50,738 bases of DNA from a virus: IMG/VR virus record IMGVR_UViG_3300005807_000006, positions 1-50,738 of that record, one strand, 5' to 3'. The notes under the pieces were generated by a model. That model had not been told where the DNA came from, searched no databases, and was given only the letters and a program-made list of their open reading frames with translations. Below are positions 21,426-39,040 of the stretch, one piece after another (the stretch's first letter is position 1; each line of letters begins with the position of its first letter). A program made the translations under genes and the position numbers.

Positions 21426-21764
21426 ATGGCACGGAATATGAGTTTTGCAATGACCACAGACCAATTTAGAGCGCGAACCAAGACGGTTACTCGCAGGTTT
21501 GGATGGTGGTTTCTTAAGCCCGGCGACGAAGTGCGCGGGGTGGAAAAGGCAATGGGCCTGCAGAAAGGCGAGAGAATTAAACCGCTTGGAATGATACGCA
21601 TTGTTTCTGTGCGACCAGAGCTGCTGAACGCAATTACAAAGGACGATGTAATTAAAGAGGGGTTTCCAAATTGGACGCCAGCGCAGTTTGTGCAAATGCT
21701 GGTAGATCACTACCGCACTGATCCGGCTGCGACGGTAAACAGGATTCAGTTTGAGTACCTATAA
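21426..21764 (+). CDS. ASCH-like domain protein (cassette)
   Basis: 112 residues from the ATG at 21426 (AGAGG upstream). The N-terminus (MSFAMTTDQFRARTKTVTRRFGWWFLKPGDEV) and GMIRIVSVRPELL match the ASCH/PUA-like fold of small phage and cassette proteins that bind RNA or modified bases. Its base composition is visibly more GC-rich than the phage genes around it, a sign of foreign origin. The stop lies within the TAAC of the attC site that follows. Confidence 0.65.
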   Translation: MARNMSFAMTTDQFRARTKTVTRRFGWWFLKPGDEVRGVEKAMGLQKGERIKPLGMIRIVSVRPELLNAITKDDVIKEGFPNWTPAQFVQMLVDHYRTDPAATVNRIQFEYL

Positions 21765-21818
21765 CGGCTTTAATAAGCTGCTGAGTGAAACGAAGTCGGT
21801 TTGATTTATTTGTTATAT
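21759..21818 (+). other. attC site 1
   Basis: Left core ATAAC (with the stop codon of the ASCH-like gene) and right core GTTAT at 21812-21816, with a GGCTTTAATAAGC...CGGTTTGATT middle able to form an imperfect stem. It belongs to the family also seen at 22967, 34620 and 37335. Confidence 0.8.
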
Positions 21819-21835
21819 TATTTGAGGATGGGATT

Positions 21836-22114
21836 ATGGGTACTGGATTATTAGTGAAGGGATATTTACATAAAACCCCTATTTACGAGAAGGGTGATTG
21901 GTGTACAGAAGTTTTTATCGGTGACAGATTATTAGTTGATTCAGGTGGATTTGGCAGCGAATTCTTGGAATACGCAAAAATTTATGAAGTAATTGATGAT
22001 AATGGATTAACAAAATTAAAAAGTGAAGACGGGACGATTATAGATGAACGGCACACGAAAAATACAATGCCGTTTTTCGTGAAACTTCTACACCCTGCAC
22101 CTAACGATAGATAA
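21836..22114 (+). CDS. Cassette protein, beta-rich, unknown function
   Basis: 92 residues from ATG 21836 (GAGGAT upstream). A longer in-frame GTG start falls inside the attC site and is not credible. Beta-strand pattern with WCTEVFIGDRLLVDSGGFG and YEVIDDNGLTKLKSEDG, suggesting a small barrel. No family recognised. The next attC begins just after the stop. Confidence 0.6.
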   Translation: MGTGLLVKGYLHKTPIYEKGDWCTEVFIGDRLLVDSGGFGSEFLEYAKIYEVIDDNGLTKLKSEDGTIIDERHTKNTMPFFVKLLHPAPNDR

Positions 22115-22169
22115 ATATAACATCAAGTTAAAAAGCGCGTTTTGCATCGGCTTGAATACATTGTTAGGA
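22115..22169 (+). other. attC site 2
   Basis: Core ATAAC at 22117-22121 and GTTAGGA at 22163-22169; the interior begins ATCAAGTTAAAAAGCGCG, the most frequent attC family in this genome. Confidence 0.8.
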
Positions 22170-22194
22170 TGAAATTAACTAAGGAGTAAGGGGT

Positions 22195-22371
22195 ATGACA
22201 GATTATTACAGCCAGTTTCACCCGAAAGAAAGGACAGGAAAAGAGTGTAAAAAAGTTAAGTGCGAGAGATATAATGATTACTTGGCGTGGAAGCTAGGGA
22301 GCAGTGCTTTAGAGTATTGTATGGCGTGTAAAAACGCTCACGTATCACAGTATAAGAGCAGCAAAAAATAA
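22195..22371 (+). CDS. Small zinc-ribbon-like cassette protein
   Basis: 58 residues, MTDYYSQFHPKERTGKECKK..., with Cys pairs (ECKKVKCERY and YCMACKN) that could bind zinc. AAGGAG lies upstream of the ATG. Its stop TAA is the first part of the next attC core, the classical cassette arrangement. Function unknown. Confidence 0.65.
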   Translation: MTDYYSQFHPKERTGKECKKVKCERYNDYLAWKLGSSALEYCMACKNAHVSQYKSSKK

Positions 22372-22453
22372 CGTCGTTTTTAACTTGCGCCATCACCAAA
22401 CTATAAATAGAGACGCTGAGCTTTCAGCGTCAAGTTGAAAAACCTTGTTATAT
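22366..22453 (+). other. attC site 3, with clear stem and extrahelical base
   Basis: Cores ATAAC (22368-22372) and GTTAT (22447-22451). TTTTTAACTTG (22377-22387) pairs with CAAGTTGAAAAA (22431-22442) apart from one unpaired G at 22437, the extrahelical base expected of attC. An inner hairpin pairs GACGCTGA (22412-22419) with TCAGCGTC (22424-22431). This is the most textbook-like site of the set. Confidence 0.9.
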
Positions 22454-22475
22454 GGCAGTGAATTAAAGGAAAGAC

Positions 22476-22703
22476 ATGAACATAGACTGCTCAAAAATAG
22501 CAAACAAAAGTGACTTGCTGGTATTAGTTGGGGTGGTGATTATTATTGCTCTTCTTGGCGTGGCAGTTATGTTAACAATTTATGCTGATAACTTTATTGC
22601 TGGATTTTTTAGCGCAACAATTACTTGGAAATGGCATGGCTGGATTTACAAGCCGATAGATAGAATGCTGGATAAATTGTGGCCACCAGACGATGCCATA
22701 TAA
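22476..22703 (+). CDS. Small membrane cassette protein
   Basis: 75 residues with one strong hydrophobic helix (LLVLVGVVIIIALLGVAVML, about 14-33) and a second weaker one, then a Trp-rich C-terminus (WKWHGWIYKPIDRMLDKLW). AAAGGA lies upstream. Function unknown; membrane proteins are common in integron cassettes. Confidence 0.6.
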   Translation: MNIDCSKIANKSDLLVLVGVVIIIALLGVAVMLTIYADNFIAGFFSATITWKWHGWIYKPIDRMLDKLWPPDDAI

Positions 22704-22768
22704 CGACCAAGCTCAGTTGTTGCGACTGAGCAAAGCGAAAGAGCAATCAACTGGAGTGAATTGTTATG
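22699..22768 (+). other. attC site 4
   Basis: TAACGACC at 22701 to GTTATG at 22763-22768. GCTCAGTTG at 22711 and CAATCAACTGG near 22744 can contribute to the stem. The ATG of the next cassette gene (22766) lies inside the right core. Confidence 0.8.
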
Positions 22769-22972
22769 AGATTTAATGTAGGAAAATATTATAAACACAG
22801 TGGCGGCGAAATGATGCACGTGTTAGTTGCCACCAAAACAAAAGTATATGGACAAACAATGATTGCTGAATTTAATGATGGCAGCTTTAGACCTGTTGGC
22901 AATGACGAGACAAGCTCTGTTAATTGGGTGGAGTTAGACGATATTACTGAATGGGATAATTTGTTCTCATAA
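22766..22972 (+). CDS. Cassette protein, small beta-barrel-like
   Basis: 68 residues, MRFNVGKYYKHSGGEMMHVL..., ending in an acidic tail (ELDDITEWDNLFS). The YYKHSGG, YGQTMIAEF and FRPVGNDE pattern occurs in small phage and cassette proteins of unknown role. The start codon is formed by the GTTATG right core of the preceding attC, and no separate ribosome site is evident, so translation may depend on the attC sequence. Confidence 0.6.
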   Translation: MRFNVGKYYKHSGGEMMHVLVATKTKVYGQTMIAEFNDGSFRPVGNDETSSVNWVELDDITEWDNLFS

Positions 22973-23026
22973 CGGCTTTAATAATCCGCTAAGTGTAACG
23001 AGATCGGTTTGATTTATTGGTTATAT
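22967..23026 (+). other. attC site 5
   Basis: TAACGGCTTTAATAATCCGC... to GTTATAT at 23020-23026. Close relative of attC site 1 with scattered differences. Confidence 0.8.
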
Positions 23027-23044
23027 TATTTTGGAGACAAGTAA

Positions 23045-23221
23045 ATGAGTACGTTTGAAACAAAAGAAGAGTGCCTTCCTGTTGAAAAATTTATATGGGG
23101 TTGTATAGGTTTTGACTATAGGGAATTTGCAGGTATTAAAGAATTATCTTTTTCTGATCTATTGACATTACGAAGCTTAATTGATCGTCAGGCAAACGAT
23201 TTATTTAAGAACAGCGAATAA
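23045..23221 (+). CDS. Cassette protein, unknown function
   Basis: 58 residues (MSTFETKEECLPVEKFIWG...), with a C-terminal helix LTLRSLIDRQANDLFKN. GGAG at 23032 serves as ribosome site. The stop precedes an attC site whose left core reads TAAT. Confidence 0.55.
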   Translation: MSTFETKEECLPVEKFIWGCIGFDYREFAGIKELSFSDLLTLRSLIDRQANDLFKNSE

Positions 23222-23222
23222 A

Positions 23223-23283
23223 TATAATACTAAGTTAAAAAGCGCGTCTTTTTGCGCCGTCCGCGTTTATGCAATTGTTATAT
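23223..23283 (+). other. attC site 6
   Basis: ATAATAC left core (TAAT in place of TAAC) and GTTATAT right core at 23277-23283; the interior AAGTTAAAAAGCGCG is shared with sites 2 and 7. Confidence 0.75.
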
Positions 23284-23348
23284 TTTTTTTATTCGATTAA
23301 TACGTTTTGATTTTTAAAATATATGATATTTTTATTAATAGGTGATTT

Positions 23349-23528
23349 ATGGACGGGTATACGAAAGAAGTTATTGAAACTTTAGAAAATGAATTAAAAA
23401 CCACTGATACAACAGGTGAACTATTAATGCCGATTCTTGATGAAATAATAGCGGCTAGAAGCTGTGATGATAGATCGCTATTATGCGAAAAACTATTAAT
23501 TGAAGCACGAATATTCAACAGAATATAA
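23349..23528 (+). CDS. Cassette protein, helical, unknown function
   Basis: 59 residues (MDGYTKEVIETLENELKTTD...), all-helical and acidic. AGGTGA lies upstream of the ATG. The terminal ATA TAA merges into the left core of the following attC. Confidence 0.55.
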   Translation: MDGYTKEVIETLENELKTTDTTGELLMPILDEIIAARSCDDRSLLCEKLLIEARIFNRI

Positions 23529-23579
23529 TACTAAGTTAAAAAGCGCGTCTTTTGCGTCTTTTTGAACGAGCAGTTATAA
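23525..23579 (+). other. attC site 7
   Basis: ATAATAC to GTTATAA (23573-23579). AAAAAGCGC and GCGTCTTTTT form the stem with one unpaired T. Nearly identical to the sites at 36340 and 38760. Confidence 0.8.
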
Positions 23580-23596
23580 AGTTATTGGAGAATATA

Positions 23597-23821
23597 ATGA
23601 TTGAACCTAAGGGTTTGTTAAGTGGCGAGTTTTTTGAAGAGCAAACCATAATATGCCCCGAGTGTGGTGGTTTTGGATATATAGGAGACTATGAGGCAAC
23701 AAGCGAGCCTTGCGAATTCTGTGAAGGTCAGGGAGAATACGAACAAAAAGTACCGGTTTCATGGGCTACAATCAAAGAAATATACGCAATGGCTGTTAAA
23801 CATCTTGAGGATAAATCATGA
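23597..23821 (+). CDS. DnaJ-like CxxCxGxG zinc protein (last cassette of block 1)
   Basis: 74 residues from ATG 23597 (TTGGAG upstream). Two motifs, CPECGGFGYIGD and CEFCEGQGEY, form a paired CxxCxGxG zinc module like the DnaJ Cys-rich domain. Phages and cassettes carry many such small proteins; their partners are unknown. No attC follows, and its stop overlaps the next ATG (ATGA). Confidence 0.6.
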   Translation: MIEPKGLLSGEFFEEQTIICPECGGFGYIGDYEATSEPCEFCEGQGEYEQKVPVSWATIKEIYAMAVKHLEDKS

Positions 23822-23979
23822 GCATTAATCAAGATCGAGAGTCTCTTATTTTAAAAATAAAAGAGTTGATTGAATTGTATGAAAAGCGGGAAAATGATGC
23901 ACATAGACCACCCTATGAGCAAGAGGCTTATGGGGTTGTAGCATACTCTCTAAGAAAAATAATTGAGGTTAAATCATGA
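23818..23979 (+). CDS. Small helical protein, unknown
   Basis: 53 residues (MSINQDRESLILKIKELIELYEKREN...). It overlaps the previous gene by ATGA and ends in another ATGAGCAT that opens only a 10-codon frame. The joints GAGG-TAAATCATGAGCAT at 23810 and 23968 are near-identical, so a truncated duplication may lie here. No family recognised. Confidence 0.5.
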   Translation: MSINQDRESLILKIKELIELYEKRENDAHRPPYEQEAYGVVAYSLRKIIEVKS

Positions 23980-24052
23980 GCATAGGGTCAGTCAAAAATG
24001 GACTTTAGGCAGTTTAAGAAGATTTAACGAGACAAGTTTAAATAGTTAGTGT

Positions 24053-24190
24053 TATAATACAAATGCGGTGTGGAAGTCGCTAAAAAGAAATTGTTAGAGA
24101 AGGTTTAAATTTTGTGATTCTGGTGGGTTTTTCTATCTAACAGTTTCACCCCTCTTTCTAACAGGGTCACAAATTTTAAGCCTTTTTTTA
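24053..24190 (+). ncRNA. Candidate small structured RNA with terminator
   Basis: A perfect -10 (TATAAT, 24053-24058) is followed by a region ending in a long stem: 24102-24122 pairs with 24162-24182 over 21 positions with one U-U mismatch and several G-U pairs. Wobble pairs suggest selection on RNA. The loop can form a short GGTG/CACC stem, and seven T (24183-24189) follow. No good -35 is seen. It reads either as a short RNA or as the terminator of block 1 transcription. Confidence 0.55.
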
Positions 24191-24214
24191 TGCCTGAAAT
24201 TTACGGCTTTCACA

Positions 24215-24391
24215 GAGTTTATATAGAGAGTGAGAATTCGTAGACTGATACGATAGTTGGGCTGCTGCGAGCAAGCGAACTTTACGGACTAAGTAGTATT
24301 TTATGCCATAACGGTATCCGGAATCTTTAGCAGATATGAACAAGGCTTGCATGGTGGAGATCAGTGCCACCCTCACTCTCTATATAAACTC
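24215..24391. ncRNA. Inverted-repeat element 1
   Basis: A perfect 20-base inverted repeat (24215-24234 and 24372-24391) encloses about 137 bases with inner hairpins, for example ATGCC-ATAAC-GGTAT near 24303. No tRNA is recognisable. An ORF on the - strand across it (24188-24376) looks like a by-product. It shares the GTTTATAT arm segment with element 2. Confidence 0.5.
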
Positions 24392-24467
24392 AATGGTTCT
24401 TATACCAGAATTGAACCCCATTCCTCAAAAATTGAATCCAAATGCCATGTAGGCTTTAAATACAGTA

Positions 24468-24618
24468 AAGTGTTTATATGTTAGCCGGTGGCGAAATTGG
24501 CAAATGCTGATACATTTGGAAATAGCTTGTTAACAGGTATGCGGTTCGATTCCGCTGTATCAATCAGTGAAAAGTTGAATATAGGTTCGAGTCCTATCCG
24601 GCTAACATATAAACACTT
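24468..24618 (+). ncRNA. Inverted-repeat element 2, nested tRNA-like
   Basis: Perfect 21-base arms (24468-24488 and 24598-24618). Inside are a D-arm-like TGGCGAAATTGGCA and a T-arm-like ATAGG-TTCGAGT-CCTAT joined to an acceptor-like TAGCCGG/CCGGCTA. Between them a second unit, TGATACA (24508-24514) with TGTATCA (24557-24563), carries another T-arm, GCGG-TTCGATT-CCGC. No canonical anticodon arm can be drawn. It may be a decayed tRNA with a second tRNA-like piece inside, or an unknown RNA. Confidence 0.5.
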
Positions 24619-24831
24619 ACCAAAATTTAATTAGTAAGATCTATTTATCATTACAACATTGAGTACCGTGGATAAAGCAGGTGAAGTTGATGTGCTAACT
24701 ATCATAAGTTAGATATCGGAGCGACAACTCTTAAAACTGTTCTGCATACTGTGAGTGATAAGAATATAGATTTAACCTTGTATATCAACACAAGGTCTAG
24801 TGACCGTATTATTTAAAAAAAGGTGAACAAG
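24619..24831 (+). other. Non-coding stretch with two hairpins
   Basis: No gene. CTAACT/AGTTAG (24695-24712) and ACCTTGT/ACAAGGT (24775-24796) form hairpins without a T-run. The second lies about 35 bases before the next gene and might act on its mRNA leader. Confidence 0.4.
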
Positions 24832-25080
24832 ATGCGAGTTTATAAACATAAATGGGTGCAAGTCGGCAGTGGGACAGAAAATTACACTGGAGAATGTGTA
24901 TATAGAGATAAATGTCAAGAATGTGGAGTTCTATCTTGGCGCTGGAAGGACGGTAATAGACAGATAGACTTAAAAAATAGTAATAATTGCACTATAGTTA
25001 AAAATAAGGATAAATTAAATGATCTTGAAGATGAAGCAACATGTAAGCATGGTTTTTTGGTTGGTTGTGAAAAATGTTAG
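24832..25080 (+). CDS. Small Cys-rich phage protein
   Basis: 82 residues from ATG 24832; AAAGGTGA upstream is the ribosome site (a GTG at 24823 falls on it). Two Cys pairs, CQECG near residue 30 and CKHGFLVGCEKC at the end, point to zinc binding. It is the first gene of the early region and overlaps the next by 7 bases. Confidence 0.6.
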   Translation: MRVYKHKWVQVGSGTENYTGECVYRDKCQECGVLSWRWKDGNRQIDLKNSNNCTIVKNKDKLNDLEDEATCKHGFLVGCEKC

Positions 25081-25424
25081 AACTTATTACGCCAATGTGG
25101 AGGCCAGCTACTAAGTCAAAAAACACTCTATTAGCCGCTGGTTACTCTCAAAAGCAACTTAACGACATTGGTAAAGTGTTCGTAGAAAGAAACTGTGGCA
25201 AAGAGATTGACGGAGCATCAAGCCTATATTCTGCAATGGTGAGAAGTTCTGGGTCAGCTCACAATATTAAGCCGCCAAAAATAGACCCGCCAAAAACCGT
25301 GGAGATTAAATCAGATGAAAAAATAGAAAGCGATACAAAGCAAGCTCAGGAAGTTAAAAGCCAAACAACCAAAATGTCAAAACATGAAGCAATCGCTTGG
25401 TATGATGGCAATAGGCTAGAGTAA
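25074..25424 (+). CDS. Uncharacterised early protein
   Basis: 116 residues. The N-terminal half (MWRPATKSKNTLLAAGYSQ...VFVERNCG) is compact; the second half is a Lys/Pro/Glu-rich linker followed by a short KHEAIAWYDGNRLE tail. The layout is faintly like the C-terminal part of DnaT-type replication proteins, but the match is too weak to name. Start overlaps the upstream stop. Confidence 0.5.
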   Translation: MLELITPMWRPATKSKNTLLAAGYSQKQLNDIGKVFVERNCGKEIDGASSLYSAMVRSSGSAHNIKPPKIDPPKTVEIKSDEKIESDTKQAQEVKSQTTKMSKHEAIAWYDGNRLE

Positions 25425-25460
25425 GCGCGGTTTAGAGAAACTAAAACAGGATATGAAAAA

Positions 25461-25676
25461 ATGACCTATATCGAACTTGAAAAACAATATTTTAACGATA
25501 AATTTGTAAGAATATATATCGACCACATAACAACCATCGATGATGGTATTTCAGAAAACGTTAGATTTACTAGGATTCATATGGTTTGCGGTTCGTTTGT
25601 TGATGTGAAGGAAGATTTTATTGAGGTGCTAGCTAAAATCGATCTAAAAAATAAAGAAGATCAACCAAATAATTAA
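25461..25676 (+). CDS. Small protein, unknown
   Basis: 71 residues (MTYIELEKQYFNDKFVRIYI...). The pattern HITTIDDG...RIHMVCGSFVDVKEDFIEVLAKI loosely resembles small FlbD-like beta proteins. AGGA lies upstream. Function unknown. Confidence 0.5.
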   Translation: MTYIELEKQYFNDKFVRIYIDHITTIDDGISENVRFTRIHMVCGSFVDVKEDFIEVLAKIDLKNKEDQPNN

Positions 25677-25687
25677 AGGATAATAGA

Positions 25688-26179
25688 ATGAAAGTTGAAG
25701 CTAGCAAAGTTACAAAAATAAAAATAACAGGTGTTAATAGATTAGACCCTGTGCATGTATTCCTAGAAGACATAGAAAAAGGCAAAGGTAGGATCACAAT
25801 AACTTGCTACAGCAAAGCGTGGTCTTCGTATTGGGGTGGTATAGGAGATAAATCTATCAGTGAATTCTTTTGTTCTTGTAATGATAATTATTTAACTGAA
25901 AATCTAGCTCCTGATCTTGATAGCACTATTTACGACATCGATAAAATAAGGCTGGATGCAGAGAATAAAAATATGGATTGTTATAGGGACGACCCCTGGA
26001 ACGATTTTGAGTTCATGGTAAAAATGTACGGCAATGATCAGTATAATTGGGACGACTCTCTACCAAAAACAACCAATCACAAATATTATTATTTATGTAG
26101 AATTATCAAAGCTGTTAAGGATGGTTTGAATGATATCAATAAAGCCTTAAGTAACGAAAAACCAGCATCACAAAACTAA
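25688..26179 (+). CDS. Conserved phage hypothetical protein
   Basis: 163 residues. The segments LDPVHVFLEDIEKGKGRIT, CYSKAWSSYWGGIGDKSISE and FFCSCNDNYLTENL match a phage/prophage family of unknown role, well conserved around the WGGxG turn. AAAGGA upstream. Its place among early genes suggests takeover or replication support; that is inference. Confidence 0.65.
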   Translation: MKVEASKVTKIKITGVNRLDPVHVFLEDIEKGKGRITITCYSKAWSSYWGGIGDKSISEFFCSCNDNYLTENLAPDLDSTIYDIDKIRLDAENKNMDCYRDDPWNDFEFMVKMYGNDQYNWDDSLPKTTNHKYYYLCRIIKAVKDGLNDINKALSNEKPASQN

Positions 26180-26211
26180 GAGAGAACCATAAATTTTAAG
26201 GTAGAATTAAT

Positions 26212-26442
26212 ATGAATATTAATGATAAGGAGTTTAAATTTGAAATGAGCTATAAGGACTTATTCAAGCGGGCTGTAATTAATGCAAAACCTAAAACATG
26301 TGGAAGCGCACCGAAATGGGTAGCTGTCATGGATACTTTTTCTCTAGGCTCATATTACGCAATAGAATTATGCCGAGCATTGGATTTAGATCCTTATGCG
26401 AAGTCTTTAAACACTGTTAAATGCATAACATGCAACCCATAA
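26212..26442 (+). CDS. Small protein, unknown
   Basis: 76 residues (MNINDKEFKFEMSYKDLFKRAV...), with a C-terminal CITCNP that could bind a metal. AAGG upstream. No family recognised. Confidence 0.5.
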   Translation: MNINDKEFKFEMSYKDLFKRAVINAKPKTCGSAPKWVAVMDTFSLGSYYAIELCRALDLDPYAKSLNTVKCITCNP

Positions 26443-26454
26443 CTTAAATAAATT

Positions 26455-26640
26455 ATGAATCACGAAATTAAAAACATGAAATTCTCAGGATTTGGAAGCT
26501 GGAAACAATGTAGCCATTGCGGTGCGACATTTTGGGAAAAGTTGTGGCACATAGGAGGCTACAAGAGTAAATACGAGCCACCATGTCGGTTAGATCTAAG
26601 TGAAGAATGGAAAAATAACGCAGAAATAGTAGACAATTAA
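26455..26640 (+). CDS. Small zinc-finger-like protein
   Basis: 61 residues with CSHCGATFW near residue 19 and a later single Cys (PPCRLDL). Many phages carry a small protein with this SWKQCSHCG pattern. Only AAATAA stands near the ATG, so the ribosome site is weak. Confidence 0.5.
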   Translation: MNHEIKNMKFSGFGSWKQCSHCGATFWEKLWHIGGYKSKYEPPCRLDLSEEWKNNAEIVDN

Positions 26641-26655
26641 ACATAGGATATAATT

Positions 26656-26925
26656 ATGAGTAAATTTGATGAATCATTTAAAGAGCCTTGGATGTTTAGT
26701 AATGGACATTTAATGTTGTCAGGCAAATATACTAAAGACGAAGCTTTGTCAATATTTAAGGATTATGACGGAGATGAGCATCTAGGTTTGGATGACTTAA
26801 AAAAGGATAGGGTTAGGTTTGGATTTACTCCAAAAGACATTGAAGACTTTGAAGATCTGGATGTTTCTTGCTGGTATTCAGGGGCAAGTGGGAAAGGTTC
26901 AAAGGAAGTCTGGTATGTTGAATAA
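26656..26925 (+). CDS. Acidic small protein, unknown
   Basis: 89 residues, strongly acidic (KDIEDFEDLDVS), ending in an aromatic SKEVWYVE tail. Acidic early phage proteins sometimes mimic DNA, but nothing specific supports that here. AGGATAT precedes the ATG. Confidence 0.5.
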   Translation: MSKFDESFKEPWMFSNGHLMLSGKYTKDEALSIFKDYDGDEHLGLDDLKKDRVRFGFTPKDIEDFEDLDVSCWYSGASGKGSKEVWYVE

Positions 26926-26947
26926 CTTAAACACAGGAGATAATTAA

Positions 26948-27223: not shown

Positions 27224-27237
27224 ATAGGAGATATTAA

Positions 27238-27681: not shown

Positions 27682-27686
27682 TACAA

Positions 27687-30444: not shown

Positions 30445-30532
30445 CAAAAAAGAAAGGTTGGAGCTTGTTTACATTGTCGCGACTATATTTGTCTTATTAT
30501 TTTTTGTCGGATTTTTGGAGAATGGATTATGA
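30434..30532 (+). CDS. Single-helix membrane peptide
   Basis: 32 residues (MKLSKKERLELVYIVATIF...), basic N-terminus then a hydrophobic helix. It overlaps the end of the previous gene and the start of recT (ATGA). Confidence 0.45.
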   Translation: MKLSKKERLELVYIVATIFVLLFFVGFLENGL

Positions 30533-31548
30533 ATGATTTAGTACATGTAGCACCAGCAAATACTAACCAAGTATTATCTTTGGCTCAAAAAGATTTTTCT
30601 TTAGTTTCCATTGACCAAAAAATAAAATGGGAAAAAGAATTTAATTTTGCATTACAAATATTGAGAAAAAACAAGACTCTCAACGATGTGGCTTTGGAAA
30701 ATCAACAAAGCTTAAAAGATGCAATTATTAATGTATCAGCCATCGGTATAAGCCTAAATCCAGCATTAAAACACGCTTATTTAGTGCCTAGAAAAAAGTC
30801 AGTATGTTTGGATATATCTTATATGGGCTTGTTACACTTAGCTTGCATGAGCGGATCTATTGATTGGGGTCAGGCTAAAATAGTTAGAGAAAAAGACACA
30901 TATACTAGTTTAGGTATTGATAAAGCCCCTCGGCATGAATTTCAGGCATTTGGAGATAGAGGCGGTATAGTAGGCGTTTACTGCACTGTAAAAACAAATA
31001 ACGGAGACTATCTAACTGAAGAAATGTCTATTAATGCTGTTTATGATATTAGAGATCGGTCGATGGCTTACAAATCAAGCTATGGCCCTTGGTTAACAGA
31101 TCCTGAGCAGATGATAAGGAAGACGGTAGTAAAAAGAGCGTCAAGTTATTGGCCTAAAGTAGAACGTCTTGATAATGCAATAAACATGCTTAACATCGAA
31201 AACGAGGAAGGAATAGATTTTCAAAATAACAAGCCAAAAGGAAAGAGTGGTAATTGGAAGGCTGGGGTTAATCCTAACGTGCTTCCACACAAATTAAGGG
31301 AAGTTTTTTTTAACATTAATGAGGCATTTGAAGCAGAAGACTTGCAAACCGTCCTAGAAAAATTTAAAGAGTTTGGCATAATAGAGGAGATGTCCGCAGT
31401 TTGGAAATGTTTTGCTAGTGACGAAAGATCTAAAATAAACAAATACAAAAACAGCGAAGAATATACAGAAATAACAAATTCACAAAAAGTAGAATACTTA
31501 GATCAAGATGAATTATTACATCTTTGCAAAGCTTTTAATTTTCACTAA
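30529..31548 (+). CDS. recT: RecT-family single-strand annealing protein
   Basis: 339 residues. Family hallmarks include LKDAIINVSAIGISLNPALKHAYLVPR (about 64-90), SVCLDISYMGLLHLA and DPEQMIRKTVVKRASSYWPK. RecT coats single-stranded DNA and pairs homologous strands during phage recombination or concatemer formation. The first 220 residues are the conserved core; the rest is variable. No RecE-type exonuclease is adjacent. GGAG upstream, ATGA overlap with the previous gene. Confidence 0.9.
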   Translation: MNDLVHVAPANTNQVLSLAQKDFSLVSIDQKIKWEKEFNFALQILRKNKTLNDVALENQQSLKDAIINVSAIGISLNPALKHAYLVPRKKSVCLDISYMGLLHLACMSGSIDWGQAKIVREKDTYTSLGIDKAPRHEFQAFGDRGGIVGVYCTVKTNNGDYLTEEMSINAVYDIRDRSMAYKSSYGPWLTDPEQMIRKTVVKRASSYWPKVERLDNAINMLNIENEEGIDFQNNKPKGKSGNWKAGVNPNVLPHKLREVFFNINEAFEAEDLQTVLEKFKEFGIIEEMSAVWKCFASDERSKINKYKNSEEYTEITNSQKVEYLDQDELLHLCKAFNFH

Positions 31549-32627: not shown

Positions 32628-32681
32628 TATCAGAAATGTCGGCAAATTGCAGACCTATATTAGGTAGATGAGGATCAACAA

Positions 32682-32921: not shown

Positions 32922-32944
32922 AAATAACTAATGAGGATTAAAAA

Positions 32945-33534: not shown

Positions 33535-34022
33535 GTCACACTAACCGATTTGACGCTCGCAGAGATGGAAATGAAAAAGAAATCGTGGAGGTTTTTGAAA
33601 GAATGGGACTTAGCGTTTATCGATTAGATCAGCCCCTAGATCTGTTAATTGGCTATGACAAGCGCAATTACCTAGTTGAAGTAAAAATGCCGGGTAAGAA
33701 TTTAAACGATAATCAAGTGGAATTTGTAGCTAATTGGAAAGGGCAATTTATTATCATAAGAACGATTGAGCAAGCGATAAAATTTGCTCACGAAATAAGA
33801 AAAATTACAAAGCGAGGTCAAAAGAGTCAAATGAATACACATGGATTAGATAGCCATTATTTCAATAAAAAATTAAAATGCATGGTTAGAGATATTGAAT
33901 GCTACACGCCAGACGAAATGTTTAATGAGCTAAGTCGGTTGATGATGGTTGCAGCAATGCAAGCTGGAATAAAAGCCACAATCAAAGTTAAATTTATTTC
34001 TAAAAAAAGTAAGGAGGCATAA
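33531..34022 (+). CDS. VRR-NUC / resolvase-like nuclease
   Basis: 163 residues. The N-terminal 90 show a PD-(D/E)xK layout: ARRDGNEKEIVEVFERMG, PLDLLIGYDKRNYLVEVKMPG (Asp then ExK) and NQVEFVANWKGQFIIIRT. Such phage nucleases cut branched DNA or prepare ends. The C-terminal 60 residues are a helical extension. It could partner RecT, since no other exonuclease is visible. Both ends overlap neighbours. Confidence 0.65.
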   Translation: MSHTNRFDARRDGNEKEIVEVFERMGLSVYRLDQPLDLLIGYDKRNYLVEVKMPGKNLNDNQVEFVANWKGQFIIIRTIEQAIKFAHEIRKITKRGQKSQMNTHGLDSHYFNKKLKCMVRDIECYTPDEMFNELSRLMMVAAMQAGIKATIKVKFISKKSKEA

Positions 34023-34291
34023 TGATTGAATTATTAGTTAGCGTAAACAAAAAGCCTGTTGATTTGGGCAATGGAATTACACGGCATAGCTCTATAAATA
34101 AATTATGTGCGATTGATAAAATCAGAATGACTTATAACGGCCACTATTACGCTCACTTAGTAAACAAAGAGAGTGACGCTCCATTCAACTCAGGAGGAGA
34201 ATGGGGGTCGTGGGTTGGTTTTTTTAAGAAAGAAAATAAGCATGTGCGACTACCTATTATCAAAATTGAAAGGCAAGAAGTAGATGTATAA
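34022..34291 (+). CDS. Last early-region protein, next to cassette block 2
   Basis: 89 residues (MIELLVSVNKKPVDLGNGIT...), beta-rich with WGSWVGFF. AGGAGGCATA is its ribosome site and its ATG overlaps the nuclease stop, so it is a phage operon gene. Its own stop region (TATAAC) runs into a truncated attC, the left edge of block 2. It might instead be the last part of a cassette; the operon overlap favours phage. Confidence 0.55.
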   Translation: MIELLVSVNKKPVDLGNGITRHSSINKLCAIDKIRMTYNGHYYAHLVNKESDAPFNSGGEWGSWVGFFKKENKHVRLPIIKIERQEVDV

Positions 34292-34327
34292 CAATTAAGT
34301 TAACTTGCTTGAATGGAGCGCAGCGTA
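34288..34327 (+). other. Truncated attC at block 2 left edge
   Basis: TATAACAATTAAGTTAACTT followed by GAGCGCAGCG resembles the left half of an attC, but the GTTA right core is missing before the next ATG. Confidence 0.5.
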
Positions 34328-34618
34328 ATGAAAATCAAAGTTAAACGCCTTGTTATCTTTTTACATTGCTGGTTTTTCGGGCATGTGCCAGATGATAAAA
34401 ACACAGTATTTGATACAGATGAATATACCTATGGCTGGCATATGATGTGTAAGCGTTGCGGAATATTGGATATAGAACAGCACGAACTTATGACTGGCAG
34501 CAGAAGTTATAAGGTTAAGCAATTTGTGATTTTCTGGCTCTATCGTAGATGGTGTCCGGAGCCATGCAAAGACTGCGGTAGTCGATTCGGCAAGCACGAT
34601 AACTGCATACCGTTTTGA
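34328..34618 (+). CDS. Zinc-binding cassette protein
   Basis: 96 residues from ATG 34328 (an in-frame ATG at 34313 is also possible, inside the truncated attC). CKRCGILD near residue 44 and CKDCGSRFGKHDNC at the end give two Cys clusters. Aromatic-rich centre (FVIFWLYRRW). Function unknown. Confidence 0.6.
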   Translation: MKIKVKRLVIFLHCWFFGHVPDDKNTVFDTDEYTYGWHMMCKRCGILDIEQHELMTGSRSYKVKQFVIFWLYRRWCPEPCKDCGSRFGKHDNCIPF

Positions 34619-34619
34619 A

Positions 34620-34677
34620 AGATAACGGCTTTAATAAGCAGCTAAGTGCAACGAACGACATGAAGGAATTGTTATGC
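34620..34677 (+). other. attC site
   Basis: GATAACGGCTTTAATAAGCA to GTTATGC (34671-34677). Related to sites 1 and 5 in its left half but with a different right half. The next gene starts on the ATG of its right core. Confidence 0.75.
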
Positions 34678-34907
34678 AAATTGAATTGATGAGGAGAACC
34701 GCAACGGCATTGATGCCAGGGCAATCCATAAAAATTTCCCGAGACAAGATGGTAACGGCGGCTGAAGGTATTCTTTACTCTCTGCTATTTTCTGTACGCA
34801 GAGTGGATATTAAGATCTTTGCGGAACAGGTGGCGCAAAACTGGGGGGTTACGATGACTGAGGACGCTATGACGGGCGAATGGACAATGTTCAAGCCGCA
34901 TGCATAA
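34674..34907 (+). CDS. Cassette protein, unknown
   Basis: 77 residues (MQIELMRRTATALMPGQSIK...), richer in GC than phage genes. SIKISRDKMVTAAEGILYSL suggests a small alpha/beta fold. The start codon lies in the right core of the preceding attC. Confidence 0.6.
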   Translation: MQIELMRRTATALMPGQSIKISRDKMVTAAEGILYSLLFSVRRVDIKIFAEQVAQNWGVTMTEDAMTGEWTMFKPHA

Positions 34908-35001
34908 CGCCATGCTCAGGAGCGCAAAAAGCACCCACTGAACTTTAAATTTAACTAAAAACCGCGGCGTTTTTTGTGTCGCCTGGAGCTAATTGTTATG
35001 T
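34902..35001 (+). other. Long attC site (about 100 bp)
   Basis: ATAACGCCATGCTCAGGAGC to GTTATG (34995-35000), the longest site here, with an AT-rich middle and a GCGGCGTTTTTTGTGTCGC arm. The next gene's ATG (34998) is in the right core. Confidence 0.7.
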
Positions 35002-35198
35002 ATGAATGCACAGCAAAGCAGTACTGGAAAAAGATTTACAGGGTAATGCGCGTGGCAATACGCGAAGCAAATAAGGCCAGCATGGATGTGATGATCTACG
35101 GCACGGGCGCAGTAATGATCCCTAAAGATGGTGGCGACCCAAAACACGTCCCTCTTGCTAATTTGGACATGAATAATTTAACTGATCATAGGGAATAA
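34998..35198 (+). CDS. Cassette protein, unknown
   Basis: 66 residues from ATG 34998 (a GTG further upstream is inside the attC). MYECTAKQYWKKIYRVMRVAI... is helical and basic, then a GTGAVMIPKDGG beta turn. Start codon formed by the attC right core. Confidence 0.55.
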   Translation: MYECTAKQYWKKIYRVMRVAIREANKASMDVMIYGTGAVMIPKDGGDPKHVPLANLDMNNLTDHRE

Positions 35199-35253
35199 CG
35201 ACCTTGAGCTAACCTGTGAGCGGTAGCGAATCCGGTTAAGTGATTGGTTATAC
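35193..35253 (+). other. attC site
   Basis: AATAACGACCTTGAGCTAAC to GTTATAC (35247-35253). AGCTAACC near 35209 and CCGGTTAAGT near 35232 form the stem. The truncated site at 38215 begins the same way. Confidence 0.8.
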
Positions 35254-35276
35254 AGATTTAATACGAGGATTATAAA

Positions 35277-35555
35277 ATGAAAATTAATTTACAGGTTAAT
35301 ATTGATGGAATGTACTGGAGTGGTGGTGCTGGTATTGAGGTGCCGGAATTATATAGGAAATGTTTTGAGCCAATGAAAACAGGTGATGAGCCGCTTGTCG
35401 CTATGGTTACTGGCGAGATTATGGAGCAAGAAGCTAATATTGTAATGAAAACAAGAAGTGATGCCGCCGAGATATTAGGGCGAGAATTAGCAGAGCTAAT
35501 AGTTCGTGAGATGAAAGCAAAAGATACGCACAATGGTTACGAGAAGGCTGTATAA
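35277..35555 (+). CDS. Cassette protein, unknown
   Basis: 92 residues. MKINLQVNIDGMYWSGGAGI... then a helical C-terminal half (AAEILGRELAELIVREMKAK). GAGGAT upstream. The stop is in the following attC left core. Confidence 0.6.
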   Translation: MKINLQVNIDGMYWSGGAGIEVPELYRKCFEPMKTGDEPLVAMVTGEIMEQEANIVMKTRSDAAEILGRELAELIVREMKAKDTHNGYEKAV

Positions 35556-35611
35556 CGACCTTGAATTAAAAAGCGCCGTTTTTTGGCGTCTTTTTGAATG
35601 ATTTGTTATGT
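35550..35611 (+). other. attC site
   Basis: TATAACGACCTTGAATTAAA to GTTATG at 35605-35610. AAAAAGCGCC pairs with GGCGTCTTTTT around a short T loop, with one unpaired base. Confidence 0.8.
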
Positions 35612-35628
35612 GATTTACGGAGGACATT

Positions 35629-35820
35629 ATGACAGAAGACAGAATTGAAAAAATACAAAAATTAAACAGCGAGATAAAAAACTTTAAGGACTGCTACTGC
35701 GGCATTGAATTGTGGGGTGGTAGAGATACTTTTGTAAGTGCCGAGGTATTGATGTATTTTTTGATCGAGAATCCACACTTCCAAGAGATCGCGGATAATA
35801 TTAATAAAATGGACACGTAA
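35629..35820 (+). CDS. Cassette protein, unknown
   Basis: 63 residues (MTEDRIEKIQKLNSEIKNFK...), two helices around CYCGIELWGG. GGAGG upstream. TAA is the start of the next attC. Confidence 0.55.
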   Translation: MTEDRIEKIQKLNSEIKNFKDCYCGIELWGGRDTFVSAEVLMYFLIENPHFQEIADNINKMDT

Positions 35821-35876
35821 CGATTAAGTTAAAGGGCGCGGCTTTATCGCGTCCATTTTGAACGCTCTGTATAACA
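35815..35876 (+). other. attC-like site with altered right core
   Basis: GTAACGATTAAGTTAAAGGG on the left. GGGCGCGG and CGCGTCCATTTTGAAC form the stem. The right end reads GTATAAC and not GTTA, so it may be inactive. Confidence 0.65.
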
Positions 35877-35892
35877 AAGCGAGGAGATAAAG

Positions 35893-36057
35893 ATGATTTT
35901 AAAAGATGCGTATGATGAAGGCGGAAAGCTTCTTGGTGATGAATGTGTAGATTTATCAGGATTACAGGAAGACACTAAGAAAGCGATAATGCAATTAATT
36001 TACCTTGATGAAACTGTAGATATTTATAATGACGCGCTGAATAAGAAGACTACATAA
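35893..36057 (+). CDS. Cassette protein, acidic, unknown
   Basis: 54 residues (MILKDAYDEGGKLLGDECVD...), helical and acidic. GAGGAG upstream. No family recognised. Confidence 0.55.
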   Translation: MILKDAYDEGGKLLGDECVDLSGLQEDTKKAIMQLIYLDETVDIYNDALNKKTT

Positions 36058-36118
36058 TGACCATATTCAGAAGTGAACGAGTGCCAGCGAGTGAATCTGT
36101 TGGAGCTATTTGTTATAT
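36052..36118 (+). other. attC site
   Basis: ACATAATGACCATATTCAGA to GTTATAT (36112-36118), with CAGCGAGTGAATCTG in the middle. Close relative of the site at 38496. The left core is TAAT. Confidence 0.75.
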
Positions 36119-36138
36119 TTTTTTAAGAGGGTTTATAT

Positions 36139-36339
36139 ATGATAATTATTGATAAAGGCGTGGCCATGCCTACCGAAAATGGACGCTGCAAATACCCGTG
36201 GAAAGATATGGAGGTTGGTGATTCTTTTTCACTACCTAAGTTAAGTATCTCAACAGGCGCGGTAAATGAACGATATAAGCCGAAGAAGTTTGTTGCTCGT
36301 AAAGACGGCGATGGTTATCGCGTGTGGCGGATTAAGTAA
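36139..36339 (+). CDS. Small phage/cassette protein (DUF7303-like)
   Basis: 66 residues. YPWKDMEVGDSFSLP and KFVARKDGDGYRVWRI fit a small family common in phages, annotated DUF7303-like; the match is by eye. AGAGGG upstream. Confidence 0.55.
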   Translation: MIIIDKGVAMPTENGRCKYPWKDMEVGDSFSLPKLSISTGAVNERYKPKKFVARKDGDGYRVWRIK

Positions 36340-36396
36340 ATATAATACTAAGTTAAAAAGCGCGTCTTTTGCGTCTTTTTGAATGACCGGTTATTT
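36340..36396 (+). other. attC site
   Basis: TATAATACTAAGTTAAAAAG to GTTATTT (36390-36396). The interior and the downstream leader are almost identical to 38760-38845. Confidence 0.8.
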
Positions 36397-36422
36397 AATT
36401 TAAATAAATGCGAGGAAATAAA

Positions 36423-36704
36423 ATGAAATTACCTATAAATTATGAGAATCTGCACTACACAGAAAGAAGGGCTGTGCGTGAGGAGTATGTTAAGCAGCAA
36501 GATGGGAAGTGCAGCCATTGCGGAGAGCCGCTAAATTGTAAGCCTGCTGGTAATATAGTAAATAAACATGTAGATAAAAAACTATTCCCAACAGGCTTTT
36601 TTAAGTGGCCAGTGCATCTGCACCATAGCCATAATACAGGTATGACTATTGGAGCGGTGCATAACCATTGTAATGCGGTGCTGTGGCAATACCACGGCGA
36701 ATGA
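36423..36704 (+). CDS. HNH nuclease-like cassette protein
   Basis: 93 residues from ATG 36423 with GCGAGGAAATAAA upstream (an earlier in-frame ATG overlaps that site). CSHCGEPLN (about 29-37), HLHHSHNTGMTIGAVHNHCN and AVLWQYH form an HNH zinc-nuclease pattern. HNH proteins nick or cut DNA; here it could serve phage defence or packaging. The role is inferred. Confidence 0.7.
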   Translation: MKLPINYENLHYTERRAVREEYVKQQDGKCSHCGEPLNCKPAGNIVNKHVDKKLFPTGFFKWPVHLHHSHNTGMTIGAVHNHCNAVLWQYHGE

Positions 36705-36705
36705 C

Positions 36706-36792
36706 ACATAACGACATTTAATAACCTGCGGCATAAATAGCTTGCAGTAAACACGATGAGGGTTGACCGTCTGGTTGATTTTATTGTTATAT
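36706..36792 (+). other. attC site (about 87 bp)
   Basis: CATAACGACATTTAATAACC to GTTATAT (36786-36792). A long site with a TGCGGCATAAATAGCTTGCAG inner stem, unlike its neighbours. Confidence 0.7.
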
Positions 36793-36814
36793 TTTTTAAT
36801 TGGAGGATTTTAAA

Positions 36815-37045
36815 ATGAGTGAAGATTTTATAAGGAATAGCTTGGTAACTGCTTTTGTATGCGTTGAGTGCGGTAGCAATTTAAGTCTATCTTATAAAAG
36901 CAAGAAAGGCAGCGGTAGAATGGTAGATGATGAGCCAACAGGCGCGGCAATGGTTAAAAACGTGATTTACATTTACCCTTGTGAAAAATGCCTAGAGCCT
37001 GCCATTAAAGCTAAACAGGCAGTAATGGCTTTAATGGAAATATAA
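36815..37045 (+). CDS. Zinc-binding cassette protein
   Basis: 76 residues from ATG 36815 with GGAGG upstream (the upstream TTG is on that site). CVECGSNLSLSY (about 16-27) and CEKCLEPA (about 57-64) hold two CxxC pairs, probably one zinc ribbon. Confidence 0.6.
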   Translation: MSEDFIRNSLVTAFVCVECGSNLSLSYKSKKGSGRMVDDEPTGAAMVKNVIYIYPCEKCLEPAIKAKQAVMALMEI

Positions 37046-37120
37046 CATCAAGTTAAGAAGCGGTTAAATATGCAATGACGAGGGACTCAAATTCTGGTGG
37101 GAAAGTCAGAGTTTATAATT
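37040..37120 (+). other. Degenerate attC-like site
   Basis: TATAACATCAAGTTAAGAAG on the left, but the right end reads GAGTTTATAA with no clear GTTA core. Probably an eroded site, or two fused parts. Confidence 0.5.
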
Positions 37121-37140
37121 TTTAACTGAGGAAATAGAAG

Positions 37141-37380
37141 ATGAAATTTGAGCCAAATGATTTTTTTGGAACAGTACATGTACAGGTTAAACACAGCAAG
37201 TTACTTGCTAATGGAGAGCCTAACAATTTTTGGCGAAATGCACTCTATGTGTGTCAGCAAGATGATGCACATGTAGTGATTTATGCAGATGGCACAAAAG
37301 AAGTCCTAAAACAAAGAACGAAAATACGAATGACACATGACGGCTTTAATAAGCCGCTAAGTGAAACGAAGTCGGATTGA
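37141..37380 (+). CDS. Cassette protein whose frame runs through its attC
   Basis: 79 residues (MKFEPNDFFGTVHVQVKHSK...). The last 14 codons or so (HDGFNKPLSETKSD) are encoded by the following attC, whose left core has become TGAC, so the frame is not closed at the usual place. GAGGAAATAGA upstream. The native C-terminus may have been lost by a frameshift or by the core mutation. Confidence 0.55.
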   Translation: MKFEPNDFFGTVHVQVKHSKLLANGEPNNFWRNALYVCQQDDAHVVIYADGTKEVLKQRTKIRMTHDGFNKPLSETKSD

Positions 37381-37394
37381 TTTATTGGTTATAT
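37335..37394 (+). other. attC site with mutated left core
   Basis: CATGACGGCTTTAATAAGCC (TGAC for TAAC) to GTTATAT (37388-37394). Otherwise a near copy of sites 1 and 5. Confidence 0.75.
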
Positions 37395-37412
37395 TTTAAA
37401 TGAGGATTAATT

Positions 37413-37625
37413 ATGGGTTATGAAAAACCAGAAGCGGATGAGTGGGTTCAGCCGGTAAGAAAAGATTACAAGTTAGCCTGCTGTGATTGCGGGTTAGTGC
37501 ATAACATGGATTTTAGAATTAAAAAAGGCCGGATTCAATTTAGGGTACGGCGCAATAATAGAGCTACTGCTGGTATGCGGGTCGGGATGGGGCTAAGAAA
37601 GAAAAAAGACGGGACATGGCTTTAA
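37413..37625 (+). CDS. Small basic zinc-like cassette protein
   Basis: 70 residues. KLACCDCGLVHNMDFRIKKG, then a run of Arg (RVRRNNRATAGMR). This pattern is frequent in phage and cassette small proteins. GAGGAT upstream. Confidence 0.6.
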   Translation: MGYEKPEADEWVQPVRKDYKLACCDCGLVHNMDFRIKKGRIQFRVRRNNRATAGMRVGMGLRKKKDGTWL

Positions 37626-37629
37626 TTGA

Positions 37630-37690
37630 TACCTAACGTCAAGTTAAAAAGCGCGTTTAGCGTCCGATTTTGAACGCCTTTTTATGCGGG
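37630..37690 (+). other. Degenerate attC site
   Basis: CCTAACGTCAAGTTAAAAAG with a GCGCG / CGTCCG stem, but the right end reads TTTTATGCG and not GTTATGC. Confidence 0.6.
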
Positions 37691-37706
37691 GTAAAAGGAT
37701 AAACAA

Positions 37707-37964
37707 ATGCAACAAACAAAACTAAGCTCTTTAATTGAGTCATTTATAAATGTATTAATTGGGTATGGAGTAGCTTTAATTTCACAATTATTAATTTTCC
37801 CGATGTTTGGTATTCATGTTTCTCTAAGTACAAATTTATATATAGGCGCATGGTTTACGCTTATCAGTTTAATTCGCAGCTACATTATACGGCGATGGTT
37901 TAATGCAAAATTACATAATGCGGCGCAAGCTTTAGCTAAACAAGGTGCCGAACGATTCAGATAA
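37707..37964 (+). CDS. DUF7220-like membrane protein (cassette)
   Basis: 85 residues. Two hydrophobic helices, INVLIGYGVALISQLLIFPM and LYIGAWFTLISLIRSYI, then a basic RRWFN tail. A very common small phage/cassette membrane family of unknown role. AAAAGGAT upstream. Confidence 0.7.
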   Translation: MQQTKLSSLIESFINVLIGYGVALISQLLIFPMFGIHVSLSTNLYIGAWFTLISLIRSYIIRRWFNAKLHNAAQALAKQGAERFR

Positions 37965-38009
37965 CCAGCAGGCGGGTCTTATCGACTGTCTGCAATTGCC
38001 TTGTTATGT
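37959..38009 (+). other. attC site (short)
   Basis: AGATAACCAGCAGGCGGGTC to GTTATG (38003-38008). GCAG near 37968 and CTGC near 37990 close a short stem. Confidence 0.7.
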
Positions 38010-38028
38010 GCAGGGCATGGAGGTAAAA

Positions 38029-38220
38029 ATGAACGAAGAACAAACAGAAATGGAAAAATGCACAATCTACACGCGCCGAGGTGATAGGTATGAGATTAAG
38101 TGCAGACTTGGATTGTGGAGTGTTGATGCACCATACGGGTTGGCTTTGATAAATGAGGCTAATCACTATTTTCAGCAATACAAAGCTGATGGAGAATACA
38201 ACAAGTTACTTGATACATAA
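38029..38220 (+). CDS. Cassette protein, unknown
   Basis: 63 residues from ATG 38029, with GGAGG at 38019-38023; longer in-frame starts fall in the previous gene or attC. MNEEQTEMEKCTIYTRRGDR... then ALINEANHYFQQY, a small mixed fold. Confidence 0.55.
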   Translation: MNEEQTEMEKCTIYTRRGDRYEIKCRLGLWSVDAPYGLALINEANHYFQQYKADGEYNKLLDT

Positions 38221-38249
38221 CGATCTTGAGCTAACAGGAGAGGAACGAA
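38215..38249 (+). other. Truncated attC
   Basis: CATAACGATCTTGAGCTAAC then GAGAGG and the next ATG. It matches the first half of the site at 35193, but the right half and GTTA core are missing, so a deletion joined two cassettes. Confidence 0.65.
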
Positions 38250-38501
38250 ATGAACAAAGTAAATGTAGAGACGAATCCAGTTAAGCGGCATATTATGCGT
38301 AGCGATAAAGGAATATTGGATTGGCTGCAAAATGAATGCGGTGGATCGTTTAGCTGTAAGCGACAAAGAGACCCTTTTGTCGCTTCACCCACCTTTGGTA
38401 ACCTAGACGAGTGGCAGATATTTACCATTCCTTCGCAGCACGTTAAAGGCGTAAGCATAAGGGATGCTTTTAGCAATGCAATGAATAAGTGTGGCGCATA
38501 A
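38250..38501 (+). CDS. Cassette protein, unknown
   Basis: 83 residues (MNKVNVETNPVKRHIMRSDK...). Helical, with CGGSFSCKRQRD in the middle. GAGAGGAACGAA upstream. Stop within the next attC left core. Confidence 0.55.
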   Translation: MNKVNVETNPVKRHIMRSDKGILDWLQNECGGSFSCKRQRDPFVASPTFGNLDEWQIFTIPSQHVKGVSIRDAFSNAMNKCGA

Positions 38502-38562
38502 CGGACATGCTCAGAAGTGAGCGAGCGACAGCGAGTGAATCTGCTGGAGCTACTGGTTATAT
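38496..38562 (+). other. attC site
   Basis: CATAACGGACATGCTCAGAA to GTTATAT (38556-38562). Same family as 36052; CAGCGAGTGAATCTGCTGGA is the shared arm. Confidence 0.8.
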
Positions 38563-38579
38563 TTTTATTGGAGAATGTT

Positions 38580-38765
38580 ATGTGTAAATATATTGAGGTT
38601 AAAAATGGTGCGCCACATCCCCGCACAAGATGGTCAAGCGAGTGCGGGTTTGATCTAGTTTTAATGCAAGGATATACACCTAATTTTGGCAAGCAAGAAG
38701 AATATGATAAAAAAATATTACCCGCTGGTGGGTGCATGAAATGTAAAGCCGAGATTGAAACATAA
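38580..38765 (+). CDS. Cys-containing cassette protein
   Basis: 61 residues from ATG 38580 (GGAG upstream). MCKYIEVKNGAPHPRTRWSS... with a CMKCKAE end; the first and last Cys could bind one zinc. Confidence 0.55.
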   Translation: MCKYIEVKNGAPHPRTRWSSECGFDLVLMQGYTPNFGKQEEYDKKILPAGGCMKCKAEIET

Positions 38766-38816
38766 CATCAAGTTAAAAAGCGCGTCTTTTGCGTCTTTTT
38801 GAACGACCGGTTATTT
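38760..38816 (+). other. attC site
   Basis: ACATAACATCAAGTTAAAAA to GTTATTT (38810-38816). Stem AAAAAGCGC / GCG-T-CTTTTT. Near twin of the sites at 36340 and 23525. Confidence 0.85.
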
Positions 38817-38842
38817 AATTTAAATAAATGCGAGGAAATAAA

Positions 38843-39001
38843 ATGAAAGGATCTGTTATTGTGCGCTGTATTGGTGTTGACAATAAGCAACACCAATGCG
38901 AGCCAAACAAAGACACTTGCTTGTGCGGTATAAGTGTTAAGCGTAAAAAATGCTTACGTGATGATTATATGTTATCTAGTTGTTACAAATGCACATACTA
39001 A
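38843..39001 (+). CDS. Cys-rich last cassette protein
   Basis: 52 residues (MKGSVIVRCIGVDNKQHQCE...), seven Cys including CLCG and CYKC, probably zinc-bound. Its leader and ribosome site are the same as those of the HNH cassette at 36423, although the proteins differ. Confidence 0.55.
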   Translation: MKGSVIVRCIGVDNKQHQCEPNKDTCLCGISVKRKKCLRDDYMLSSCYKCTY

Positions 39002-39008
39002 TAAATCA

Positions 39009-39040
39009 CACTAACACCAAGTTAGAAAGCACATTAGTTG
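39009..39040 (+). other. Partial attC at block 2 right edge
   Basis: CTAACACCAAGTTAGAAAGC keeps the left core and arm of the common family, but no right core follows before phage sequence resumes. Confidence 0.5.

Follow-up and report, generated by a model that had tools for sequence, protein, structure and literature searches.

The podophage genome IMGVR_UViG_3300005807_000006, analysed here over the entire 50,738 bases of its IMG/VR virus record (the window), contains two blocks of small genes interspersed with attC-type sites, the recombination sites of integrons. The sites are genuinely of attC type and point in the direction opposite to the genes that they accompany, and we consider it probable that both blocks consist of integron gene cassettes of a reversed type, carried by the phage and forming a cluster of attC sites lacking an integron integrase (CALIN). 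A preliminary description, made from the DNA letters alone, had reported approximately 24 such sites in two blocks of a podophage genome; covariance models and a structural score support 19 of the approximately 24 at the positions claimed, and covariance matches and virion gene content bear out the two blocks and the podophage (capsid, tail tubular proteins, portal, terminase, RecT-like annealing protein and DNA methyltransferase).

attC sites and their orientation

We built two covariance models from known attC sites, with no sequence from the window, as an attC check of the kind that the preliminary description had proposed. Model R1 comprised 12 plasmid (class 1 integron) attC sites and 2 from phage TJE1, with trimmed loops and the accepted attC pairing, and R2 widened R1 with sites from other phages; the E-values of both are only rough. 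Searched against both strands, R1 gave 11 matches at E<0.1, all on the minus strand and all at positions named previously (top match, 35550-35611; 36.6 bits, E 3e-7), and its top plus-strand match (E 0.14) fell at an unrelated place. R2 added three sites at E<0.1 (37947-38009, 34289-34355 and 22115-22169), and weaker covariance matches (22380, 34646, 35820 and 36720) and a structural score at 34906-34997 complete the 19 sites. The remaining five (approximately 23222, 36055, 37043, 38218 and 39013) are degenerate or incomplete/cut. The 11 sites matched by R1 have R''/R' cores (AAC...GTT), L''/L' arms and unpaired central spacers, and attC sites of the window also carry two extrahelical bases approximately 6 nt apart on one arm. 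A structural scorer that demands the first extrahelical base, run on both strands and on shuffled genomes, identified seven minus-strand sites at a score of ≥25, all within the two blocks (shuffled genomes, 0.1 each at ≥24). The extrahelical C was found at a fixed position in nine minus-strand block sites, eight of which had the second base too; the single plus-strand candidate (34163-34220; 24.8) lies inside a gene and lacks the second base. The arms at 22366-22453, singled out earlier for pairing with an extrahelical base, scored 32 on the minus strand and enclose an inner hairpin. The median spacing of sites is 329 bp. A plain AAC...GTT palindrome scan was dropped as not discriminating (63 plus-strand matches versus 39-51 in shuffles), and a scan with Rfam, which has no attC family, gave no gathering hits.

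Profile searches of the window found neither IntI (TIGR02249) nor a tyrosine recombinase (PF00589), as previously surmised. With at least two attC sites and no IntI nearby the window holds a CALIN and not a complete integron, which is defined by its IntI gene; six other phage contigs searched also yielded no integron integrase.

The attC sites are all on the minus strand and the cassette genes all on the plus strand, on the basis of R1/R2 matches and of the structural scorer, which selects the coding strand for plasmid attC and the opposite strand for those of the window. Read along its gene, a normal attC has two unpaired bases six nucleotides apart in its left arm (TT-C-AAGCCG-A-CG in aadA1). 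The window sites show this pattern in the right arm, read as its complement (GTT-C-AAAAAG-A-CGC at 38760-38816 and TTT-C-AACTTG-A-CGC at 22366-22453). The recombinogenic strand is marked by the extrahelical C and A; these lie on the arm that is wrong for an ordinary cassette, and the sites are thus inverted relative to the genes. Whereas a canonical cassette has its gene and attC in the same orientation, with the stop codon near R'', the genes here stop at R'. The plus-strand genes are real, given that several match PHROG families or phage proteins. The standard structure of integron cassettes, as first described for these blocks, is therefore not what the sites and genes display.

Cassette genes and inverted arrays in other phages

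Six of the 23 cassette proteins tested match PHROG families. Further proteins have homologs in Pseudomonas phages, and those of the ASCH-like and endonuclease-like proteins are found in Vibrio, Rhizobium and mycobacterial phages. Of 369 gammaproteobacterial genomes, only 8 had matches, solely through the two commonest protein families, and the few plasmid matches mostly involved the ASCH-like gene. A homolog of one cassette gene on a Shewanella plasmid was considered as a bacterial cassette and rejected (no attC near the homolog). Because of these phage homologs and the scarcity of bacterial and plasmid matches, the genes are more aptly viewed as phage genes packaged as cassettes than as cassettes that a phage acquired from bacteria, and the cargo probably consists of accessory early genes (nuclease, methyltransferase, and small host-takeover or counter-defence proteins). 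The earlier suggestion that such phages ferry cassettes between bacterial integrons is doubtful, both for this phage-type cargo, hardly present in bacterial genomes, and because a cassette entering attI in the orientation enforced by IntI would have its gene facing away from the Pc promoter.

The same inversion is present in five further array-bearing phages (G021, G392, G395, PH101 and MW202573, of which the last two are published). The endonuclease-VII-like gene led to G021 (contig L143; 50 kb), which has about twelve attC sites and whose virion genes are unrelated; the homolog sits inside the inverted array, and a methyltransferase and the endonuclease gene are on the strand opposite to the attC. 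The ASCH-like gene led to G392 (44 kb, with a terminal repeat), G394 and G395, the last of which has its ASCH-like homolog outside the array and an inverted attC array of its own. Both cassette gene families thus recur in phages with unrelated virion genes. PH101 and MW202573 were examined without selection by cassette gene: in PH101 (KR534323), a virulent Pseudoalteromonas phage, four attC sites at 75919-77987 are on the plus strand and the annotated genes of the region on the minus strand, and in MW202573 two attC sites are on the minus strand and the genes on the plus strand. Vibrio phage MK672802 carries a captured bacterial integron, and the sole site detected in this phage is in the normal orientation; a covariance search of P12002L gave no usable match. 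A search of viral contigs for exact matches to the attC patterns of the two window types that are most common also found none.

We compared orientations using the longest open reading frames (ORFs) between neighbouring sites, with bacterial control arrays from the same search. Phage arrays except TJE1 had 31 inverted and 2 canonical intervals, versus 8 and 32 in bacterial control arrays (Fisher p 9e-11, indicative only, as intervals within an array are not independent). By array, six of six phage arrays (TJE1 apart) were inverted and seven of eight bacterial arrays mostly normal. Five of the eight bacterial exceptions come from a 5.5 kb bacterial genome contig (L218), in which the longer frame (63-121 aa) is opposite to the attC; these intervals could be reversed cassettes in a bacterium or an effect of G+C content. 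The canonical ORF score of G021 7692-7777 was overruled, as the frame opposite to the site is the DNA methyltransferase. Further isolated attC sites, opposite to adjoining phage genes, were seen in G393 (L206; 5397-5468) and L148 (3645-3989).

Table 1. Coordinates of attC sites, selected cassette genes and the RecT-like gene in the window.
Feature	Position	Strand	Evidence or remark
attC	21759..21818	-	R1 22.2 bits, R2 29.8 bits
attC	22115..22169	-	R2 17.7 bits
attC, extrahelical C and A, inner hairpin	22366..22453	-	structural score 32 minus versus 20.6 plus; weak covariance match at 22380
attC	22700..22767	-	R1 E 1e-4, R2 E 1e-6
attC	22967..23026	-	R1 22.1 bits
attC	23523..23579	-	R1 21.9 bits; structural score 28
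attC, start of block 2	34289..34355	-	R2 22.2 bits
attC, degenerate	34618..34680	-	weak R1/R2 match; position after ORF
attC, long inner hairpin	34902..35001	-	structural score 25, minus only
attC	35193..35253	-	R1 21.1 bits
attC, best match	35550..35611	-	R1 36.6 bits, E 3e-7
attC, weak	35816..35874	-	R2 12 bits
attC	36340..36396	-	R1 16.7 bits; structural score 22
attC	36706..36792	-	structural score 27, minus only; weak covariance match at 36720
attC	37335..37394	-	R2 24.7 bits
attC	37631..37687	-	R1 17.4 bits
attC	37947..38009	-	R2 23.4 bits
attC	38496..38562	-	R1 19.7 bits
attC, nearly same as 36340 site through leader to ATGAAA	38760..38816	-	R1 32.2 bits; alignment
Cassette gene 1, ASCH-like, 112 aa, leader GTATTAGAGGTACGT ahead	21426..21764	+	82-87% aa homologs in viral contigs L185 and L201
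Cassette gene, endonuclease VII-like, 93 aa	36423..36704	+	PHROG 14729 E 6e-35; homologs in Vibrio, Rhizobium and Agrobacterium phages
Cassette gene, 70 aa, phage protein family	37413..37625	+	64% identical stretch in Pseudomonas phage phiPSA1
Cassette gene, small membrane protein	37707..37964	+	PHROG 4276 E 6e-28
Cassette gene with homolog in G392 array	38029..38220	+	tblastn 62% over 40 aa, G392 31348-31229
Last cassette gene, 52 aa	38843..39001	+	PHROG 21598 E 7e-13
RecT-like single-stranded DNA annealing protein, between the two blocks	30529..31548	+	PHROG 148 E 2e-64; possible contributor

The ends of the record probably join to give a complete, circularly permuted genome, as an open frame at 50490-50738 is continued without a frame shift at 1-966, and terminase, portal, protease and capsid follow one another as in relatives. 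A short sequence around AAATCATGAGCAT is directly repeated (23817-23829 and 23974-23986) where the attC sites end, at the right border of block 1. The capsid protein is encoded by about a hundred viral contigs; a close cultured phage was looked for and none was found.

Candidate mobile unit and alternative explanations

Crossover at the R' box of attC would fall at TAA|C, at the stop codon of the gene and the left end of the reversed site. Indeed, 21 of 24 genes stop with TAA, mostly as TAAC, as the preliminary description had noted of stops merging into TAAC cores. Given that the R' crossover box lies at the left end, where each gene stops, the mobile unit would comprise an attC, a leader with a ribosome-binding site and then a small phage gene read opposite to the attC. 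The sites lie directly upstream of the ribosome-binding site. The 36340 and 38760 sites are near-identical over a stretch that starts just right of the core and extends across the leader as far as ATGAAA, and are unrelated left of the core, and the leader of the ASCH-like gene (TTAGAGGTACG) is common to its homologs in viral contigs L185 and L201 (three phages), both of which fit a unit of site, leader and gene. The stretches at 36340-36430 and 38760-38850, placing near-identical attC and leader ahead of two unrelated genes, resemble a reusable site-leader module.

As IntI1 recombines attC sites of virulent phages, PH101 among them, with attI1 (Qi et al. 2023; PMC9892861), the simplest agent would be a host integron integrase acting in trans, which would excise and insert units from single-stranded phage DNA. 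IntI recombines only the folded bottom strand, which bacterial arrays hold on the leading-strand template, and placing it on the lagging-strand template or inverting the array raises excision (PMC11023631). In the window, the recombinogenic strand would be the coding strand, and thus the lagging-strand template if forks move with transcription. The units would then be in a recombination-prone state while all genes could be read from phage promoters within the phage operon. The plus strand is G-rich throughout the window, which fits replication running with transcription but does not prove it.

Several observations weigh against reversed, mobile phage cassettes. TJE1, unlike the window, is in the normal orientation, and G021, G392, G394 and G395 were reached through shared gene families and are not an unbiased sample. 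The commonest attC motif of the window was found in no integron among 84,980 genomes, with three apparent chance matches; of the matching loci, those in Alcanivorax and Bdellovibrionaceae were rejected (no cassette array in their ORF lists). A search for a closely related phage pair with and without a given cassette found none, and no excision or insertion event was observed. The window and 15 major-capsid relatives have virion genes in common and almost none of the early region. Among the 15, only G005 (L123; 10847-10892 and 12322-12391) and G014 (L106; 8858-8958) have one or two isolated attC-like sites (E<0.2; best E 3e-6) above apparent noise, from which the lineage may gain and lose cassettes. 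No attC array was found in G022, a relative through RecT. Several sites in the window are degenerate, and three of the commonest type resemble terminators by their plus-strand score; these last two points also bear on the rival explanations.

The strongest rival is that the repeats serve homologous recombination or strand annealing by RecT, with the attC character a relic. T4-like phages provide the precedent: their early genes are separated by promoter/early stem-loop repeats that help cassette shuffling through homologous recombination and are not known to have attC features. Early genes lying between stem-loop repeats are common to T4-like phages and the window, in a comparison that covers a promoter scan here. 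The RecT-like gene between the blocks, the near-identical attC and leader units ahead of different genes, and the degenerate sites all suit this explanation. We nevertheless hold it to be rather doubtful, as sites within the arrays mostly differ in sequence yet keep the attC pairing, extrahelical bases and cores that homologous recombination does not need, and block 2 has about as many promoter-like sites as chance predicts (17 versus 14.3 expected, scanning the sigma-70 consensus only). If the hairpins instead served gene expression (as terminators or in RNA processing or translation control), with attC likeness secondary, the terminator-like scores and the position of sites directly upstream of ribosome-binding sites would be accounted for; however, terminator likeness suits few sites, and the AAC/GTT cores, the two extrahelical bases at fixed spacing and the match to a model of known attC would be left unexplained, and we regard this reading as very unlikely.

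The blocks could also be an ordinary CALIN, that is, a stretch of a bacterial chromosomal integron captured en bloc with normal cassettes. The attC sites are of bacterial type, CALINs are known in phages (PMC9892861) and MK672802 exemplifies such a captured piece with its one normally oriented site, but in the window the genes are reversed relative to the attC throughout, the cassettes are short, the cargo is phage-type with few bacterial matches and the blocks are two and separate, and we regard en bloc capture as unlikely. An assembly chimera of phage and bacterial integron DNA is extremely improbable, given the phage-type cargo, the position of both blocks within one coherent genome, and the recurrence of the design in PH101, which is an isolated phage, as well as in independent contigs.

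Relation to known integrons and significance

CALINs in the virulent phages TJE1, PH101, P12002L and MW202573 have already been published (Qi et al. 2023; PMC9892861). They are, like those of the window, attC clusters without an integrase; the attC of TJE1, PH101 and P12002L were recombined by IntI1 in vivo, and DNA methyltransferases are among the cassettes. The paper describes the cassettes of TJE1 and PH101 as one-directional with a typical bacterial structure, and the passages searched report no inversion of genes relative to attC, whereas in our analysis the sites of PH101 and MW202573 run opposite to the annotated genes, like those of the window. The arrays that we detected in published phages have 2 to 4 sites, versus 19-24 in the window. 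Sedentary chromosomal arrays (for example, the Vibrio cholerae superintegron) share attC structure and sequence and tandem small genes with the window, but in chromosomal integrons the gene precedes an attC of the same direction and IntI and attI are present; the bacterial control arrays were mostly normal in this respect. The new elements are that the inversion is consistent, that the cargo is of phage type and shared among phages, and the size of the array. A search of open-licence papers found no reversed, phage-gene CALIN of such size common to unrelated phages.

The occurrence of arrays of the same build, with a few cassette genes in common, in unrelated viruses suggests that phages have their own gene-swapping pool that borrows the bacterial integron integrase. 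For the fuller proposal, in which diverse phage lineages share a dedicated pool of reverse cassettes exchanged through the integrases of infected hosts, with gene direction selected for both an exposed attC strand and reading within the operon, we see the chances as even. Accessory gene islands of phages turn over rapidly, and attC-tagged phage genes would provide a site-specific route of gain that borrows host integron machinery. The reversed design touches on two questions about integrons: by what route a gene turns into a cassette, and how selection acts on its direction relative to attC and replication. PH101 was isolated together with its host, and the idea is hence open to bench work. 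If true, gene flow among phages and among bacteria would meet at integron integrases.

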